Source: an uncultured Pseudomonadota bacterium
GTDB taxonomy: Bacteria; Pseudomonadota; Gammaproteobacteria; Burkholderiales; CAIKXV01
Assembly: GCA_903831455.1 (NCBI GenBank)
Contig: CAIKXV010000057.1
Location: forward strand, 1 to 37,874
Reading direction: 5' to 3'
DNA length: 37,874 nucleotides
Of this stretch, positions 2 to 11,859 are shown piece after piece. The position numbers and the translations under genes are program-made. The notes beneath the pieces were generated by a model, which was not told the origin of the DNA, did not search any database, and worked only from the letters and a program-made list of their open reading frames with translations. Numbering within the stretch: position 1 is the first letter of the stretch; the number at the start of each line of letters is the position of its first letter.

Positions 2-262
2 CACCATGCCGAGATGCGCGAGGTCGAAGGCGTGCTCTACTGCAACGACGGCGACTGGGTGGAGAGCCTCAGCGCGCTCGTCGAGCACCCGGACGGGCGC
101 CTGGAGATCATCGATCGCGCCTACAGCCGCCGCGGGGCGGGTGCCCCGGTGCGCGAGCCGGCAGCCGCGCCGTCGATGCCGGAGCGGCACCCGGATCCGG
201 TGCACCTGCCCGCGCCCGGCGTGCTGCTGCCCGTGACGCGCACCCGGCTGCCCGAACGCTAG
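2..262 (+). CDS. LpxH/PlcP-like metallophosphoesterase, C-terminal fragment
   Basis: The gene is cut by the left window edge; the reading frame enters at base 2 and ends at TAG 260-262. The visible 86 residues begin with HHAEMRE and continue with YCNDGDWVES and ALVEHPDGRLEII. The first His residues would be the end of the calcineurin-like GHxHH metal-binding motif. This ending is typical of proteins annotated as UDP-2,3-diacylglucosamine diphosphatase (COG2908) and unlike classical E. coli LpxH. From family knowledge, rhizobial PlcP, an intracellular phospholipase C induced by phosphate starvation, belongs to this same group. Nearby psd and glycosyltransferase genes and the Pho-like boxes at 3632-3691 favour a PlcP-like role in releasing diacylglycerol from phospholipids. 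The N-terminal catalytic half is outside the window, so LpxH activity cannot be excluded. The stop codon overlaps that of the convergent psd gene. Confidence 0.8.
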   Translation, partial: HHAEMREVEGVLYCNDGDWVESLSALVEHPDGRLEIIDRAYSRRGAGAPVREPAAAPSMPERHPDPVHLPAPGVLLPVTRTRLPER

Positions 263-1152
263 TCCGGCGACCCGCGCGCCGAAGCGGGCGGGGTGCGGAC
301 CAGCAGCGGCTCGCCGGCGCGAAGCCGATCCCCCGGCCGCGCCGACTGCGCCAGCGAGTATCCGGGCGGCGCCAGCACGATGATCGTGGAGCCGTGCTCG
401 AACCAGCCCATCTCCTGGCCGAGTTCCAGGGGCACGCGGCAGTGGACCCGGGGCGGACGCGCGCCGCGCAGCGCGGGCTGCCCGGGCAGGCAACTCAGTC
501 GCAGGCTCGCCACCAGGATCGCCGCGACCGGCACCAGCAGCAGCGGGGGGGAGCCGTCGGCCGGCGCGAGTTCGAGCACGGCCCGCTCGTTGCGGCAGAA
601 GAGCCGATCGACCCGGGCAAGCGCCGGTGGATTGACGTTCCAGGCATCGCCGTCGATCCAGTCGATCCGGCGCAGTTCGCCTGCGAGCGGCGAGTGGAAG
701 CGGTGGTACATCGCGGAGGTCAGGCGCAGCGTCGCGTAGAAGCCGCCCGCCAGCCAGCGCGAGGGCTCCTCGCGGGTGCAGAGCTCGGCCAGCGTGTAGG
801 GCATGCCCTTCGCCTGCAGCAGCGTGTCGTGCTCGATCGGGCCGCATGCCCCCACGATCGCATCGCAGGGGCTGGGCAGGATGCCGGCGGTTCGGTCGAA
901 CGGACGGGCGCCGGGCCGCAGTTCGCGGGTAAAGCATTCATGCAGGCTCGCGAACGCGGTGGCCCTGGCATCGGACAGGTCGAGATCGGTGAACAGGCGC
1001 CACAGCGCGAGGCCCGCGCGCGTGAACATGGGACTGCGGATGCGGCTCAGTCGTCCGAACAGCCGCGTCATCGTCACCCGCGGCAGTCGATTGGTCAGCA
1101 GGAAGTTGAGGTCCTCGCGCAGCAGGAGCTGCCTGAGCAGGCGTCTGTTCAT
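259..1152 (-). CDS. psd: Phosphatidylserine decarboxylase
   Basis: This pyruvoyl enzyme converts phosphatidylserine to phosphatidylethanolamine at the inner membrane. With ATG at 1152 it has 297 residues, close to the usual length. All three expected catalytic elements are visible: Asp97 in PCDAIVG, His153 in YHRFHSP, and the Gly254-Ser255 self-cleavage site in HGST. The residue before GST is His rather than the common Leu of LGST, but the Gly-Ser pair that is cleaved and forms the pyruvoyl group is intact. The frame stays open upstream to about 1479, but that stretch is low-complexity Arg-rich and antisense to the aminotransferase, so I chose 1152. No strong ribosome binding site precedes it. 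The gene is divergent from the class III aminotransferase and convergent with the PlcP/LpxH-like gene, with which it shares a palindromic CTAG stop. Confidence 0.9.
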   Translation of the reverse strand: MNRRLLRQLLLREDLNFLLTNRLPRVTMTRLFGRLSRIRSPMFTRAGLALWRLFTDLDLSDARATAFASLHECFTRELRPGARPFDRTAGILPSPCDAIVGACGPIEHDTLLQAKGMPYTLAELCTREEPSRWLAGGFYATLRLTSAMYHRFHSPLAGELRRIDWIDGDAWNVNPPALARVDRLFCRNERAVLELAPADGSPPLLLVPVAAILVASLRLSCLPGQPALRGARPPRVHCRVPLELGQEMGWFEHGSTIIVLAPPGYSLAQSARPGDRLRAGEPLLVRTPPASARGSPD

Positions 1153-1217
1153 ATGGGTGTCAAGCGGGAGGCGTACATCGGTCACGGATGTTTCGACATG
1201 TTCCGGTGAGGTCACAC

Positions 1218-2879
1218 ATGGATGCAGCACTCGTACTCGGTCTCGCGGCGGCAGGTGCGGCGGGCGCCGTGATTCCCGCCGCCCGCAGGCGCCTGATGCT
1301 CTCGCGCGCCAAGCACCCGTCGCTGGCGGGTCATTCGCGCATGGCGCGTCGACTCGCACGGCTCCTGCCGGGTTACGAGTTTCGCGGCGACGCCTTCTAC
1401 GCCAGCGACGGCGCGGACGACGCGCTCGCGCACCGGCGCAGGAGCGGTCTCGCGCGGCTCTCCGCGGGGCTGCACGCACGATCGCCCAAGGGCATCGCGC
1501 TCACCGAGGAGGCCCATGCGCTGATCTCCGACCTGCGCTTCACCCGGCGCTACCGGGTGCCCTTCCAGTACTCGGCCGAACTGGAGGCCCTCCTGCCCGG
1601 CAGCGCGTTCGCCACCGGCACCGACGGGGCGTGGATCACCGACGTCGACGGCAATCGGCTGCTCGACGTGTCCGGCTCCTACGGCGTCAACCTGCTCGGG
1701 CACGAGTTCTACAAGCGCTGCATCGCGCGCGGCCACGAGCAGGCGGCGGCGATGGGCACGCTGCTCGGCAGCTATCACCCTTGCGTGCTGGACAACGTGC
1801 GCCGGCTGCGGGAGATCTCCGGGCTGGACGAGGTGTCCTTCCACATGTCGGGCACCGAGGCGGTGATGCAGGCCGTCCGCCTGGCCCGCTATCACACCGG
1901 TCGCAGCCATCTGGTCCGATTCTGCGGCGCGTACCACGGGTGGTGGGACGACGTGCAGCCGGGTCCCGGGACTCCGATCGCCCCCGCCTATACCTACACG
2001 CTGCGCGACATGGACGAGCGCACGCTGGAGGTGCTGCGCAGCCGCCGCGACATCGCCTGCGTGCTCGTCAACCCGTTGCAGGCGCTGCATCCGAACCGCC
2101 AGGCGCCGGGCGACTCCTCGCTGGTGGACGGCTCGCGGCAGGCGGGATTCGACCGGCAGGCGTACGCCCGCTGGTTGCAGGCGTTGCGCGAGGTATGCAC
2201 CGAGCGCGGCATCGTGCTGATCATGGACGAGGTGTTCCTCGGGTTCCGGCTCGCGCCGCGAGGGGCCCAGGAGTACTTCGGCGTCAGGGCGGATCTGGTG
2301 ACCTACGGCAAGACGCTCGGTGGCGGCCTTCCCGTGGGCGTGCTCTGCGGGCGAGCGGACCTGATGAAGCGATACCGCGAGGATCGGCCCGCGGACATCT
2401 GCTTCGCCCGGGGCACCTTCAACAGCCATCCGCTGGTGATGGCCGCGATGAACGCCTGGCTGCACGAGTGGTCCACTCCCGAGGTGCAGTCGCTCTACCG
2501 CGACCTCGACTCGCGCTGGACCGGCCGGCAGGACCTCCTGAACCGGAGGCTCTCCGAGGCCGGGCTGCCCGTCAGCGTGGCGGGCATGTCCACCGTCTGG
2601 ACGGTGCTCTACGGTCGGCCGTCGCGCTACCACTGGATGTTCCAGTTCTATCTGCGCGAGCAGGGACTGTCGCTCAGCTGGGTCGGAAGCGGCCGGATGA
2701 TCTTCAGCTTCGACTTCGACGACCCGCTGTTCGAGGAGTTTGCCGGGCGCTTCGTGGAGGCGGCCCGACGCATGGAGGAGGACGGATGGTGGGACTGTCC
2801 GCTCCCCACCAACCGACGGATCCGGCGCCGGGTCCTGGAGGAACTCTCCGCGCGTCTGCTGGGGCGCCAGGCTGCCTGA
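1218..2879 (+). CDS. Class III PLP-dependent aminotransferase, glutamate-1-semialdehyde aminomutase-like
   Basis: This is a 553-residue PLP enzyme of the class III aminotransferase fold. The PLP-anchoring Lys365 lies in YGKTLGGGLPVG and the Asp337 that contacts the pyridine nitrogen in IMDEVFLGFR. MSGTEAVMQAVRLAR is the phosphate-binding segment and AYHGWWDD resembles glutamate-1-semialdehyde aminomutase. It is about 120 residues longer than HemL, with a hydrophobic N-terminus (residues 3-20) and basic stretches before the catalytic domain; this suggests membrane association. ATG 1218 follows a GAGG box; an in-frame ATG at 1188 has no such box. It sits between psd and an Mpo1-like membrane gene in a lipid-related neighbourhood, so the substrate may be a lipid head group or precursor. 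That is inference, and true HemL function is unlikely given the extension and context. Confidence 0.8.
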   Translation: MDAALVLGLAAAGAAGAVIPAARRRLMLSRAKHPSLAGHSRMARRLARLLPGYEFRGDAFYASDGADDALAHRRRSGLARLSAGLHARSPKGIALTEEAHALISDLRFTRRYRVPFQYSAELEALLPGSAFATGTDGAWITDVDGNRLLDVSGSYGVNLLGHEFYKRCIARGHEQAAAMGTLLGSYHPCVLDNVRRLREISGLDEVSFHMSGTEAVMQAVRLARYHTGRSHLVRFCGAYHGWWDDVQPGPGTPIAPAYTYTLRDMDERTLEVLRSRRDIACVLVNPLQALHPNRQAPGDSSLVDGSRQAGFDRQAYARWLQALREVCTERGIVLIMDEVFLGFRLAPRGAQEYFGVRADLVTYGKTLGGGLPVGVLCGRADLMKRYREDRPADICFARGTFNSHPLVMAAMNAWLHEWSTPEVQSLYRDLDSRWTGRQDLLNRRLSEAGLPVSVAGMSTVWTVLYGRPSRYHWMFQFYLREQGLSLSWVGSGRMIFSFDFDDPLFEEFAGRFVEAARRMEEDGWWDCPLPTNRRIRRRVLEELSARLLGRQAA

Positions 2880-2949: not shown

Positions 2950-3558
2950 TCAGTGCCGCCGCACGTGGGACATCGGGTCGATCAGCTCGCCCCGCATCAG
3001 TGCGAGGGGTGCGCGGTAGTAGAGCGCGAGGTCGTGGAACGGATCGGTGAGGATCTTGGCCGCCCACGCAAGGCCGGTGAGTGCGCCGCGCGTGAAGCAC
3101 AACTGGATCACGCGGACCAGCAGCCCCGACACGCCCAGGGCGAGCCATGCCATGCCCACGTCGTCGATGTATTCGCGCGCGGTGGTGGCCGGCACGATGA
3201 GACCGGCGAGATCGGGCGAGAGCCAGAGCGCGACCGGCGCCAGCGCCCAGGCGGCCATCAGCACGACCTTGCGGCGGATGTTGTAGCCGACCTTGACCTC
3301 TTCCTTCAGGGCATCGCTCATGTCGTTCACATGGTCGTAGCCGCGCGGTTCGAAGAAGAAGTGCCCGGCCTGGCGGCTGGTCATCGAGACGCACCAGGCG
3401 AGGATGGCGGCGGCGGCGGGGTCGATGAACAGCAGCACGTAGGCCGCGATGAAGCTCGAGGCGCTCAGCGCGTGAAGGGACTGGTTGATGCGACTGTGGT
3501 GGTACAGCCGATGGTCGTCCCAGCGCTGCAGGCGAAGTTCGGCGAGGAATCGATTCAT
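2950..3558 (-). CDS. Small multi-pass membrane protein, Mpo1-like
   Basis: A 202-residue protein with about four hydrophobic segments (roughly residues 30-60, 95-130 and 140-165). Two motifs stand out: HHSRINQSLH near residue 20 and RQAGHFFFEPRGYD near residue 65. The pattern H..N..H followed by GH...E is what I expect of Mpo1/DUF962 proteins, integral membrane iron-dependent fatty-acid alpha-oxygenases first described in yeast. The spacing is shorter than in yeast Mpo1, so the family call is tentative. ATG 3558 is preceded by GGAGA at a good distance. Upstream lies a Pho-box-like triplet on the same strand with a -10 element exactly 10 nt downstream, suggesting induction by phosphate limitation together with the divergent glycosyltransferase. 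It is convergent with the aminotransferase. A role in fatty-acid or membrane-lipid turnover would fit, but is inferred. Confidence 0.65.
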   Translation of the reverse strand: MNRFLAELRLQRWDDHRLYHHSRINQSLHALSASSFIAAYVLLFIDPAAAAILAWCVSMTSRQAGHFFFEPRGYDHVNDMSDALKEEVKVGYNIRRKVVLMAAWALAPVALWLSPDLAGLIVPATTAREYIDDVGMAWLALGVSGLLVRVIQLCFTRGALTGLAWAAKILTDPFHDLALYYRAPLALMRGELIDPMSHVRRH

Positions 3559-3584: not shown

Positions 3585-3638
3585 TTGACTGCTGTCCGTC
3601 GACAGGCTCGTGGCGATCATGCAGATGCAAGGTGACTC
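3585..3638 (-). promoter_or_regulatory. Pho-box-like triplet and -10 for the Mpo1-like gene (wider promoter zone)
   Basis: Read leftward, three 7-bp units occur: CTGTCAC (3660-3654), ACGTCAC (3649-3643) and GAGTCAC (3638-3632). Each pair is separated by 4 bp, giving an 11-bp repeat like the PhoB-binding Pho box (CTGTCAT repeats). Exactly 10 nt after the last unit comes CATGAT (3621-3616), a 4/6 match to TATAAT, at the spacing known for E. coli Pho promoters where the box replaces the -35 hexamer. The predicted transcript starts near 3609 and has a leader of about 50 nt with a ribosome binding site. The first two units lie at 3643-3660, just outside this entry's coordinates. Confidence 0.7.
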
Positions 3639-3691
3639 GGTGGTGACGTTCCCGTGACAGGGGTGTCACGCAGTCGTCATCGGCCTGTCGC
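3632..3691. promoter_or_regulatory. Back-to-back Pho-box-like array, six half-sites at 11-bp steps
   Basis: Half-sites GTGAC start at 3632, 3643 and 3654. GTCAC, GTCAT and GTCGC start at 3665, 3676 and 3687. All steps are exactly 11 bp and the orientation flips in the middle, so the two triplets point to the two divergent genes. The centre is a perfect palindrome, CGTGACA and TGTCACG around GGGG (3653-3670). The 7+4 bp unit matches the direct-repeat architecture of PhoB boxes from established work in enterobacteria and rhizobia. Six in-register sites on one face of the helix could bind PhoB oligomers cooperatively. Confidence 0.75.
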
Positions 3692-3707
3692 GTCGCGGCG
3701 GCACCAT
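3663..3707 (+). promoter_or_regulatory. Pho-box-like triplet and -10 for the glycosyltransferase gene
   Basis: Rightward units GTGTCAC (3663-3669), TCGTCAT (3674-3680) and CTGTCGC (3685-3691) are separated by 4 bp each. Ten nt downstream lies CACCAT (3702-3707), a weak -10 (3/6). Transcription would begin within a base or two of the ATG at 3715, and no ribosome binding site precedes that ATG, so a leaderless or nearly leaderless mRNA is predicted. Confidence 0.6.
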
Positions 3708-3714
3708 CGCCGCC

Positions 3715-4950
3715 ATGGATACTGCGTCTGCCGCCGCATCGATCGAAGTGCAGTCGTTGCCTGCCCGGAACAGGACCCTCCGCATCGCGGTCGTCACCGA
3801 GACCTACCCGCCCGAGGTGAACGGCGTGGCGCTCACCCTCGCGCGACTGGTCGAGGGGGTGAGGAGCGCGAACCACGACGTCCAGCTGATCCGGGTGCGC
3901 CGCGATGCGAGCGACCAGTCCGATCCCGACGACAGCCGGGAAATCCTGATGCGCGGGATCCCGATCCCTCGGTATCCGAGCCTGAGGATGGGCATGCCGG
4001 CCCGCCGGGCCCTCACCCGGTTGTGGCGCGTGGATCGCCCGGATGTCGTCCACATCGCGACCGAAGGTCCGCTGGGGTGGTCGGCGCTCAAGGCGGCACT
4101 GCAGTTGCAGCTGCCGGTGTCGTCGGATTTCCGGACCAACTTCCACGCCTACAGCGGCTACTACGGCATCGGGTTCCTGCATCGGCCGATCATGGCCTAT
4201 CTCAGGCGCTTCCATGCACTCGCCCACCTGACGCTGGTGCCGACCGAGGCGTTGCGCGAGACGCTGGAGGATGCGGGCTTCCGCGGGCTGCGGGTCGTCG
4301 CCCGCGGGGTGGACACCGCCCTGTTCTCGCCGAGTGCGCGCAGCGAGCAGCTTCGCGCCGGGTGGGGGGTGTCCGGGGATGACCTCGTCGTCTGCTGCGT
4401 GGGACGCCTGGCGGCCGAAAAGAACCTGCAACTGGTGATCAGGTCCTGGCGAGCCATCCAGCGCGTGCAACCCCGGGCGCGGTTGCTGCTGGTCGGCGAC
4501 GGGCCGCAGCGGCAGGCCCTGCAGGCCGAATGCCCGGACGCGATGTTCGCCGGGCAGCGCTCGGGCGAGGATCTCGCCGCGCACTATGCGTCGTCCGACC
4601 TGTTCCTGTTTCCCAGCCTGACCGAGACCTTCGGCAACGTCACCCTCGAGGCGATGGCCTGCGGCCTGCCGGTGGTGGCGTTCGACGGCGCCGCGGCCCA
4701 GGCGCTGATCAGCTCGGGGGTCAACGGCCTGAGGGTGGCGCGAGGCGACGAGCAGGCGTTCGTCGATGCAGCCGTCCTGCTGGCGGGCGAGCCGCCGCGC
4801 CGGCAGGCCATCGGCGCACGGGCGCGGCTCAAGGCGGAGGAATCGGACTGGGCGTCGATCACCGAGCGGTTCACCTCGGAGCTGTCCCGGCTGATTGCCT
4901 CGCGCAAGTCGCTGGAGTCCGCGCGCGCCCTGAGGCTGGCCCGTTCCTGA
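3715..4950 (+). CDS. GT4-family glycosyltransferase, probable glycolipid synthase
   Basis: A 411-residue GT-B enzyme. The N-terminal acceptor domain shows RIAVVTETYPPEVNGVALT with the glycine-containing acceptor loop. The C-terminal donor domain shows VGRLAAEKNL and the EX7E pair Glu304/Glu312 in TETFGNVTLEAMACGLPVV. These are features of retaining GT4 enzymes, and the N-terminus resembles GDP-mannose-dependent alpha-mannosyltransferases (PimB/MgtA type). There is no signal peptide; peripheral membrane action is expected. Pairing of a PlcP-like phosphoesterase with a COG0438 glycosyltransferase (Agt) is known from marine and soil proteobacteria, where phospholipids are replaced by glycosyl-diacylglycerols under phosphate limitation. 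The Pho-like triplet directly upstream fits that role. ATG 3715 lacks a ribosome binding site, but no better start is present before the conserved N-terminus. The donor sugar cannot be told from the sequence. Confidence 0.85.
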   Translation: MDTASAAASIEVQSLPARNRTLRIAVVTETYPPEVNGVALTLARLVEGVRSANHDVQLIRVRRDASDQSDPDDSREILMRGIPIPRYPSLRMGMPARRALTRLWRVDRPDVVHIATEGPLGWSALKAALQLQLPVSSDFRTNFHAYSGYYGIGFLHRPIMAYLRRFHALAHLTLVPTEALRETLEDAGFRGLRVVARGVDTALFSPSARSEQLRAGWGVSGDDLVVCCVGRLAAEKNLQLVIRSWRAIQRVQPRARLLLVGDGPQRQALQAECPDAMFAGQRSGEDLAAHYASSDLFLFPSLTETFGNVTLEAMACGLPVVAFDGAAAQALISSGVNGLRVARGDEQAFVDAAVLLAGEPPRRQAIGARARLKAEESDWASITERFTSELSRLIASRKSLESARALRLARS

Positions 4951-10589: not shown

Positions 10590-10623
10590 CCGTCATGAGG
10601 GTGTCACCCGGCCGCCTCATGCT
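10590..10623 (+). promoter_or_regulatory. Pho-box-like pair and -10 for phnA
   Basis: CCGTCAT (10590-10596) and GTGTCAC (10601-10607) form an 11-bp-step direct repeat with a 4-bp spacer. CATGCT (10618-10623) follows exactly 10 nt later as a possible -10. The layout is the same as in the two Pho-like promoters near 3.6 kb, though with two units instead of three. The predicted start near 10630 is only about 6 nt before the phnA ATG. A second possible -10, TACCAT at 10555-10560, lies upstream without a recognisable -35. Confidence 0.55.
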
Positions 10624-10635
10624 CGGGTCATACAC

Positions 10636-11859
10636 ATGGATACGCAGATCGAAGTGAACGGGCGGCGCTATCGCGCCCCGGACCGACCCACCGTCGTGGT
10701 GTGCATCGACGGATGCGAGTTCGACTACATCACGCACGCGGCGCAGGCCGGGGTCGCGCCCTGGTTCGCGCGCGTGCTGGCCACGGGGACGGCACTGCGT
10801 GCCGACAGCGTGGTTCCCACCTTCACCAACCCGAACAACCTGTCCATCGTCACCGGCGTGCCGCCGGCGGTCCACGGCATCTGCGGGAACTACTTCCTCG
10901 ACCGCGAGGCGGGTGTCGAGACGATGATGAACGACCCGCGGTTCCTCCGGTGCGGGACGATCCTCGCGGCCTTCGCCGATGCCGGCGGGCGCGTGGCGGT
11001 GGTCACGGCCAAGGACAAGTTGCGCGGCCTGCTGGGGCATCGCATGAAGGGGGTGTGCTTCTCGGCCGAGCGTGCCGACCGGGTGACACCCGAGGAGAAC
11101 GGGATCGACGACGCGCTGTCGCTCGCCGGCATGGCGGTGCCGTCGGTCTACAGCGCCGAACTGAGCGAGTTCGTGTTCGCGGCGGGCGTCGGCCTGATGA
11201 AACGGATGCGACCCGACATCATGTACCTGTCCACGACCGACTACATCCAGCACAAGGCCGCCCCCGGAAGCGCGACCGCCAACGCCTTCTACGCGATGAT
11301 GGACCGCTACCTCGGAGAACTGGAGGCCGCAGGGGCGCGCATCGCGGTGACGGCCGACCACGGCATGAACGCCAAGACCCGGCCGGATGGCGAGCCGGAC
11401 GTCATCTACCTGCAGGACCGCCTCGACGAGGCCTTCGGGTCGCAGTCCACCCGCGTGATCCTGCCGATCACCGATCCGTACGTGGTGCACCACGGAGCGC
11501 TCGGCTCGTTCGCGACCGTCTACACCCGGACGCCCGACGCCGCCCGCGAGGTGCTCGGTTTCATCGAGCGCCTGCCCGGCGTCGACTCCGCCCTCGATCG
11601 CGACACCGCCTGCGCCCGATTCGAACTGCCGCCCGACCGCGTCGGCGATGTCGTCGTGGTCTCGGCCCGCCATGTCGTCATCGGCACCAGCCGCAGCCGT
11701 CACGACCTGTCCGGCCTCGATGAGCCGCTGCGGTCCCATGGCGGGATCACGGAGCAGGAGGTCCCGCTGCTCGTGAATGCGCCGGGCGGGGCGATTCCCG
11801 GTCGCGAGCGCCATCGCAACTTCGACATCTTCGATGTCGTGCTCAACCACGCCCGCTGA
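10636..11859 (+). CDS. phnA: Phosphonoacetate hydrolase
   Basis: This zinc enzyme of the alkaline phosphatase superfamily cleaves the C-P bond of phosphonoacetate to give acetate and phosphate. The 407-residue length equals that of the Pseudomonas enzyme as I recall it. The metal ligands and nucleophile are visible in order: Asp25 (VVVCIDGCEFD), Thr64 (PTFTNPNNLS), Asp202 and His206 (STTDYIQHK), Asp241-His242 (TADHGMN) and His368 (LRSHGG). The frame is open further upstream, but ATG 10636 gives the family N-terminus. No ribosome binding site precedes it. A Pho-box-like repeat lies just upstream, and a Bug-type binding protein follows 40 bp downstream, probably in the same operon. No LysR-type PhnR regulator or PhnB transporter is adjacent. 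Other phosphonopyruvate/nucleotide-hydrolase relatives share the fold, but the length and motif match is good. Confidence 0.9.
   Translation: MDTQIEVNGRRYRAPDRPTVVVCIDGCEFDYITHAAQAGVAPWFARVLATGTALRADSVVPTFTNPNNLSIVTGVPPAVHGICGNYFLDREAGVETMMNDPRFLRCGTILAAFADAGGRVAVVTAKDKLRGLLGHRMKGVCFSAERADRVTPEENGIDDALSLAGMAVPSVYSAELSEFVFAAGVGLMKRMRPDIMYLSTTDYIQHKAAPGSATANAFYAMMDRYLGELEAAGARIAVTADHGMNAKTRPDGEPDVIYLQDRLDEAFGSQSTRVILPITDPYVVHHGALGSFATVYTRTPDAAREVLGFIERLPGVDSALDRDTACARFELPPDRVGDVVVVSARHVVIGTSRSRHDLSGLDEPLRSHGGITEQEVPLLVNAPGGAIPGRERHRNFDIFDVVLNHAR

Follow-up and report, generated by a model that had tools for sequence, protein, structure and literature searches.

The divergent locus

We analyzed a stretch of 37,874 nucleotides (the window), which carries between positions 259 and 4950 a phosphatidylserine (PS)-decarboxylase homolog, a class-III aminotransferase-like protein, an Mpo1-like protein, and a GT4 glycosyltransferase, in an order that is conserved among relatives. 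The features discussed below are as follows.

259 to 1155, minus strand: PS-decarboxylase homolog (PF02666; TIGR00163 143.5 bits against a cut-off of 111.75)
1146 to 1165, plus strand: weaker Pho-like box before the aminotransferase gene (rank 21 of 75,710 positions; TACATC at 1174-1179, at +15)
1188 to 2879, plus strand: class-III aminotransferase-like protein (PF00202; the start may be 1218)
2953 to 3558, minus strand: Mpo1-like predicted membrane protein of 201 aa (PF06127, below cut-off)
3616 to 3621, minus strand: -10-like element CATGAT, at +15 from the last minus-strand half-site
3632 to 3658, minus strand: putative Pho array of three half-sites directed toward the Mpo1-like gene (GTCAC at 3658-3654, 3647-3643, and 3636-3632)
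3653 to 3670, no strand: perfect 7-4-7 palindrome joining both arrays (CGTGACA-GGGG-TGTCACG), not conserved in relatives
3665 to 3691, plus strand: putative Pho array of three half-sites directed toward the GT4 gene (starts at 3665, 3676, and 3687)
3702 to 3707, plus strand: -10-like element CACCAT, at +15 from 3687 and 7 nt before the GT4 ATG
3715 to 4950, plus strand: GT4 glycosyltransferase of 411 aa (Pfam), probably with a leaderless mRNA
10590 to 10609, plus strand: putative Pho box before the phosphonoacetate hydrolase gene (rank 3 of 75,710 positions; 46 bp before the ATG at 10636)

A preliminary description of this DNA had reported six half-sites in exact register, and on re-reading of the letters its coordinates proved exact: GTGAC at 3632, 3643, and 3654 and GTCAC, GTCAT, and GTCGC at 3665, 3676, and 3687 all keep 11-bp steps, the orientation switches at the 18-bp palindrome, and a CAnnAT element lies 10 nt past each triplet (CATGAT at 3621-3616 on the minus strand, CACCAT at 3702-3707 on the plus strand). 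The pattern GTCRY-N6-GTCRY-N6-GTCRY occurs seven times in the 4.1-Mb genome, against once for a reversed control pattern; two of the seven are the arrays at 3632-3691, and the other five lie on five different contigs. Triplets alone are not special to the Mpo1-GT4 gap, since a triplet with GTCGC as its third site and a -10 element at +15 also precedes the genes for PhoD and an OlsB homolog in the same genome. What is special to this gap is the back-to-back placement of the triplets.

Predicted Pho boxes in the window and in the genome

A 20-bp matrix, seeded with the Pho consensus and fitted, with one best site each, on the genome's own phoB upstream region and 34 pstS upstream regions (eight from the same genus, the other 26 from elsewhere in the order), was used to score all 75,710 positions on the two strands of the window. 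The array at 3632-3691 was outside this training set, which may include some regions without a true box (one, L178, scored only 7.8). The five top positions were 3641 on the minus strand, 3663 on the plus strand, 10590 on the plus strand, 3630 on the minus strand, and 3674 on the plus strand, the four overlapping 20-bp boxes of the array thus taking ranks 1, 2, 4, and 5. The box at 10590 is followed by CATGCT at 10618-10623, again at +15, and the hydrolase behind it, PhnA, scored 582 bits against an NCBIfam cut-off of 407.55.

PMC8528852 gives the PhoB-dependent Pho-box consensus as CTGTCAT-N4-CTGTCAT. The window shares with promoters of this kind the 7+4 direct repeats and their position upstream of a -10 element, as before pstS, phoB, PhoD, and phnA; it differs in that its two triplets keep the 11-bp register without a break across a palindrome, and in that transcription would be expected to start at the GT4 start codon itself. 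The Pho-box architecture that had been proposed for the repeats is borne out by the matrix ranks, the 11-bp direct repeats, the -10 offset, and conservation in orthologous divergent regions.

A PhoB is encoded in the genome (350.9 bits against a family cut-off of 296.2), and the promoter of its gene, CTGTCACGCATCCGTCAC, is close to the window's TGTCACGCAGTCGTCAT. Across the genome, GTCAY-N6-GTCAY was found 14 times, compared with five times for the reversed control, and a phosphate or lipid gene follows in eight cases. Three of these eight are the array at 3632-3691, and the other five lie one each before phnA, phoB, PhoD, the OlsB homolog (a label given below the NCBIfam cut-off), and a PlcP-like metallophosphoesterase. 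The remaining pairs comprise one before an ArsR-type gene, one before an ORF without a family, and four without a convincing gene start. As separate observations, the PlcP-like gene (L199, contig C222), the OlsB homolog (L202, C256), and PhoD (L196, C83) have a similar Pho box with a -10-like element at +15, and a Pho-like repeat lies directly upstream of the ArsR-type regulator gene (L201, C234).

The arrays might be used not by PhoB but by a different response regulator of the OmpR family whose site is a similar direct repeat. The genome encodes six further full-length OmpR/PhoB-type regulators, all below the PhoB cut-off, and sequence alone does not name the binding protein. We nevertheless consider this improbable, as a matrix built from pstS and phoB promoters picks the array boxes and the phnA box out of the window, and the same box precedes PhoD.

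Conservation of the divergent pair

Of the 399 genomes of the order, 40 encode the Mpo1-like protein, and the genome collection has at least 566 contig stretches with it; the best 80 of these 566 relatives, Variovorax, Roseateles, and Rubrivivax strains among them, form our named loci. Divergent GT4 and Mpo1-like genes no more than 700 bp apart were found in 21 of 30 order-level loci and in 72 of the 80 named loci. Within the genus, five of seven GT4 loci examined have a divergent Mpo1-like neighbor (68-69% identity), and the five gaps align at half-sites 3632, 3643, 3665, and 3676, with 3687 degenerate. On the minus side of these gaps, 3632/3643 is kept as GTCAC-N6-TTCAT, and 3654 is replaced. 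The GT4 relatives L015 and L020 have no Mpo1-like neighbor. What orthologous gaps share with the window is a box of two half-sites on either side and the position of the -10 element; the unbroken sixfold register and the perfect palindrome of the preliminary description are not conserved in them.

Using dinucleotide shuffles (p ≤ 0.05), we scored 109 of 110 upstream regions, having excluded L071 with its 48 bp of upstream sequence. A box toward Mpo1 was significant in 98 and toward GT4 in 93 (both in 83, either in 108), leaving 11 regions without one on the Mpo1 side and 16 on the GT4 side; the loci are related and the rows not independent, so these counts overstate independence. The anonymous and named sets also overlap, some loci evidently being one place (for example L244 and L150, with an identical gap). 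Boxes in both directions, conserved in orthologous divergent regions, agree with the earlier proposal that the Mpo1-like and GT4 genes are a divergently controlled pair, as far as this can be predicted from promoter sequence.

In 61 of 80 loci, where length alone predicts 2.2, the highest score of the whole locus lay in the Mpo1-GT4 gap; after removal of similar gaps this held for 45 of 61 (1.8 expected). Chance repeats in a G+C-rich gap are scarcely credible against this conservation and the rank tests, even though the triplet occurs five more times in the genome, two of them before the PhoD and OlsB homologs. The box on the GT4 side also goes with the gene: it scored at least 8 in 62 of 72 loci with a divergent GT4 and in three of eight without (Fisher p = 0.005), the exceptions being ten of the 72 with a score below 8 and the three of eight above 8. 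In three loci without a GT4 beside the Mpo1-like gene (L060, L155, and L153), a strong Pho box yet faces away toward another gene.

Promoter anatomy and the GT4 start

In the genome's own phoB promoter and in same-genus pstS promoters, the -10 element lies 15 bp from the last half-site, as it does in both arrays, and this common offset supports the earlier reading of the CAnnAT elements as predicted -10 boxes. Elements of the CACGAT/CAAGAT type, counted by eye, stand at the CATGAT offset in the same-genus alignment. Among the 72 named divergent loci, a [CTG]ANN[AC]T hexamer was found at offset 28 from the start of the best plus-strand box in 63, with no other offset from 5 to 59 above five loci. 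An in-frame ATG or GTG follows at offset 38-44 in 62 of the 72 and at 49-55 in four more, with neither in six. The window has the same layout, its promoter-proximal box at 3674 having the -10 element at +28 and the GT4 ATG at +41, and the promoter-proximal pair 3676/3687 fits the cTGTCATcgaactGTTGC box that recurs among the named loci.

Given this spacing of box, -10 element, and start codon, there is hardly space for a leader, so the GT4 mRNA is probably leaderless. In front of the Mpo1-like ATG lies an SD-like GGAG, and a leader of about 50 nt would fit there. The fixed distance from -10 element to start points to leaderless messages within a Pho regulon. In the same genome, the genes for GT4 (3715), PhnA (10636), and the PlcP-like protein (L199) all start ATGGATAC, 6-12 nt from a -10-like element.

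The junction of the two arrays

The preliminary description had further proposed that one PhoB filament runs through the palindrome and controls both genes, and this part did not survive comparison with the relatives. In 60 non-redundant gaps, half-sites on one strand are most often 11 bp apart (96 pairs), followed by 22 (29), 24 (26), and 13 (12); no other spacing from 5 to 20 bp exceeds 12 pairs, and the secondary peaks are at 13, 24, and 35 bp. Chains of at least three sites at 11-bp steps are the longest found in four of the 60 gaps toward GT4 and in 19 of the 60 toward Mpo1. Longer arrays toward Mpo1 (L051, L055, L079, and others) often have one 13-bp step among the 11-bp steps.

The distance between divergent boxes was determined for 45 of the 60 gaps, those scoring below 8 on either strand being excluded. 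It ranged from -25 to 126 bp, with 34 bp the commonest value (seven gaps) and the window's 11 bp found once; the phase preference was weak (Rayleigh p about 0.014 at 11.0 bp, 0.04 at 10.0, and 0.17 at 10.5). Given this range, and with half-site 3654 replaced in the genus, one continuous PhoB filament is not a family trait, and the unbroken register between the arrays is not kept in orthologs. The perfect 7-4-7 palindrome might instead suggest the operator of a dimeric regulator, with the 11-bp register secondary. We find this very improbable and rejected a single palindromic operator at 3653-3670, as the palindrome is not conserved and relatives keep the flanking direct repeats instead. What the family is predicted to conserve is a pair of separate, divergently oriented promoters, and by the same comparison the gapless junction seen in the window is a local peculiarity.

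The gene cluster and membrane lipids

The Mpo1-like and GT4 genes belong to a conserved cluster. At 88 loci, within bounds set by the sequence length available per locus, the aminotransferase was found at 86, the decarboxylase homolog at 81, GT4 at 81, and a PlcP-like gene at 33. In 50 of 70 loci, a box in the gap between the decarboxylase homolog and the aminotransferase faces the aminotransferase, and in 17 of 70 one faces the decarboxylase (p ≤ 0.05, mononucleotide shuffles), the other 18 of the 88 being without a testable gap. In eight regions chosen for having PlcP-like and Mpo1-like genes on a shared contig, the decarboxylase homolog, the aminotransferase, and the Mpo1-like gene occur together in all eight, GT4 adjoins in six, and an OlsB homolog is present in two.

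The metallophosphoesterase, called PlcP-like from a motif and its neighborhood, is present in 35 of 40 Mpo1-positive genomes and in 162 of 359 others (Fisher p = 1.7e-7, uncorrected for kinship), leaving five Mpo1-positive genomes without it and 162 genomes that have it without an Mpo1-like gene. It lies on the same contig, 0.24-11.0 kb from the Mpo1-like gene, in at least 18 genomes. In G138, G266, and G349 it is within 0.3 kb, and no GT4 was found beside the Mpo1-like gene in these three. In the window's own assembly, the PlcP-like gene is on a contig other than the window, with a Pho box upstream. The labels PlcP, Agt, and OlsB are leads, given from weak or sub-cut-off matches.

Members of the Mpo1 family (PF06127) act in the alpha-oxidation of 2-hydroxy fatty acids. 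The window's protein resembles them in a weak profile match over residues 17-71 (20.2 bits, under the Pfam gathering cut-off of 24) and differs in a conserved extra C-terminal part of its 201 aa. All 38 aligned members match PF06127 at E ≤ 0.1 (best 2.6e-5), and the alignment has conserved histidines. The predicted model is of good local confidence (pLDDT 89.9); a fold search with it against solved structures gave no pointer to function: of 28 matches with E ≤ 10, the best had E 1.1 and none reached E ≤ 0.001.

For the GT4 protein, the top NCBIfam matches are lipid glycosyltransferases, far under cut-off, and among solved chains a phosphatidylinositol-mannoside mannosyltransferase comes closest (E 4.7e-16). 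The family is broad, however, and polysaccharide enzymes are also among the matches, all of them below cut-off. The arrays could be Pho boxes even if GT4 works on a polysaccharide or another glycan of the surface and not on a membrane glycolipid. We regard this as unlikely, though a more serious contender than the other alternatives, as the top family matches, the solved chain, and the lipid-type neighbors speak against it.

Glycolipid synthesis under phosphate control has precedents. According to PMC8528852, glycolipids are made in Pseudomonas aeruginosa under phosphate stress by PlcP and a pair of glycosyltransferases with Pho boxes, and PMC4796936 describes the PlcP-Agt combination in marine bacteria. 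The present cluster is alike in its Pho box before a glycosyltransferase and in the PlcP-like gene nearby in some genomes; it differs in adding the PS-decarboxylase homolog, the class-III aminotransferase, and the Mpo1-like protein, and GT4 is a candidate counterpart of Agt, its NCBIfam lipid-glycosyltransferase matches being below cut-off. In a literature search covering titles and the beginnings of abstracts, with subscription papers mostly outside it, we recognized no description of the Mpo1-like/GT4 pair or of the cluster under Pho control.

Taken together, the predicted boxes, their spacing, the -10 offset, their conservation, and the gene neighborhood argue for two back-to-back PhoB-activated promoters in a Pho-controlled cluster that most likely remodels membrane lipids under phosphate scarcity, a reading to which we assign a probability of about 0.85. 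From these features we infer that PhoB dimers would bind the 11-bp-spaced direct repeats of each strand in place of a -35 element, with the -10-like element 15 bp past the last half-site. Phosphate starvation would then induce both the Mpo1-like gene, with its leader and SD-like site, and the probably leaderless GT4 gene, both of them members of a cluster with the PS-decarboxylase homolog and the aminotransferase. The PlcP-like phosphoesterase, encoded nearby or elsewhere in the genome, would release diacylglycerol for GT4 to glycosylate. On this analysis, the cluster most likely does the PlcP-Agt kind of work with extra steps. A bolder proposal, which we hold at somewhat short of even odds, is that the PlcP-like protein, the decarboxylase homolog, the aminotransferase, the Mpo1-like protein, and GT4 form one PhoB-controlled pathway to an undescribed phosphorus-free amino- or glycolipid in Betaproteobacteria, in which the Mpo1-like protein might act on acyl chains and the GT4 and PlcP-like messages might be leaderless transcripts from Pho promoters.

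These predictions would tie an uncharacterized membrane protein, an aminotransferase, and a decarboxylase homolog to the phosphate-starvation response and lipid remodeling in a large bacterial group. They also open to direct test the question of which lipid takes the place of phospholipids in that group.
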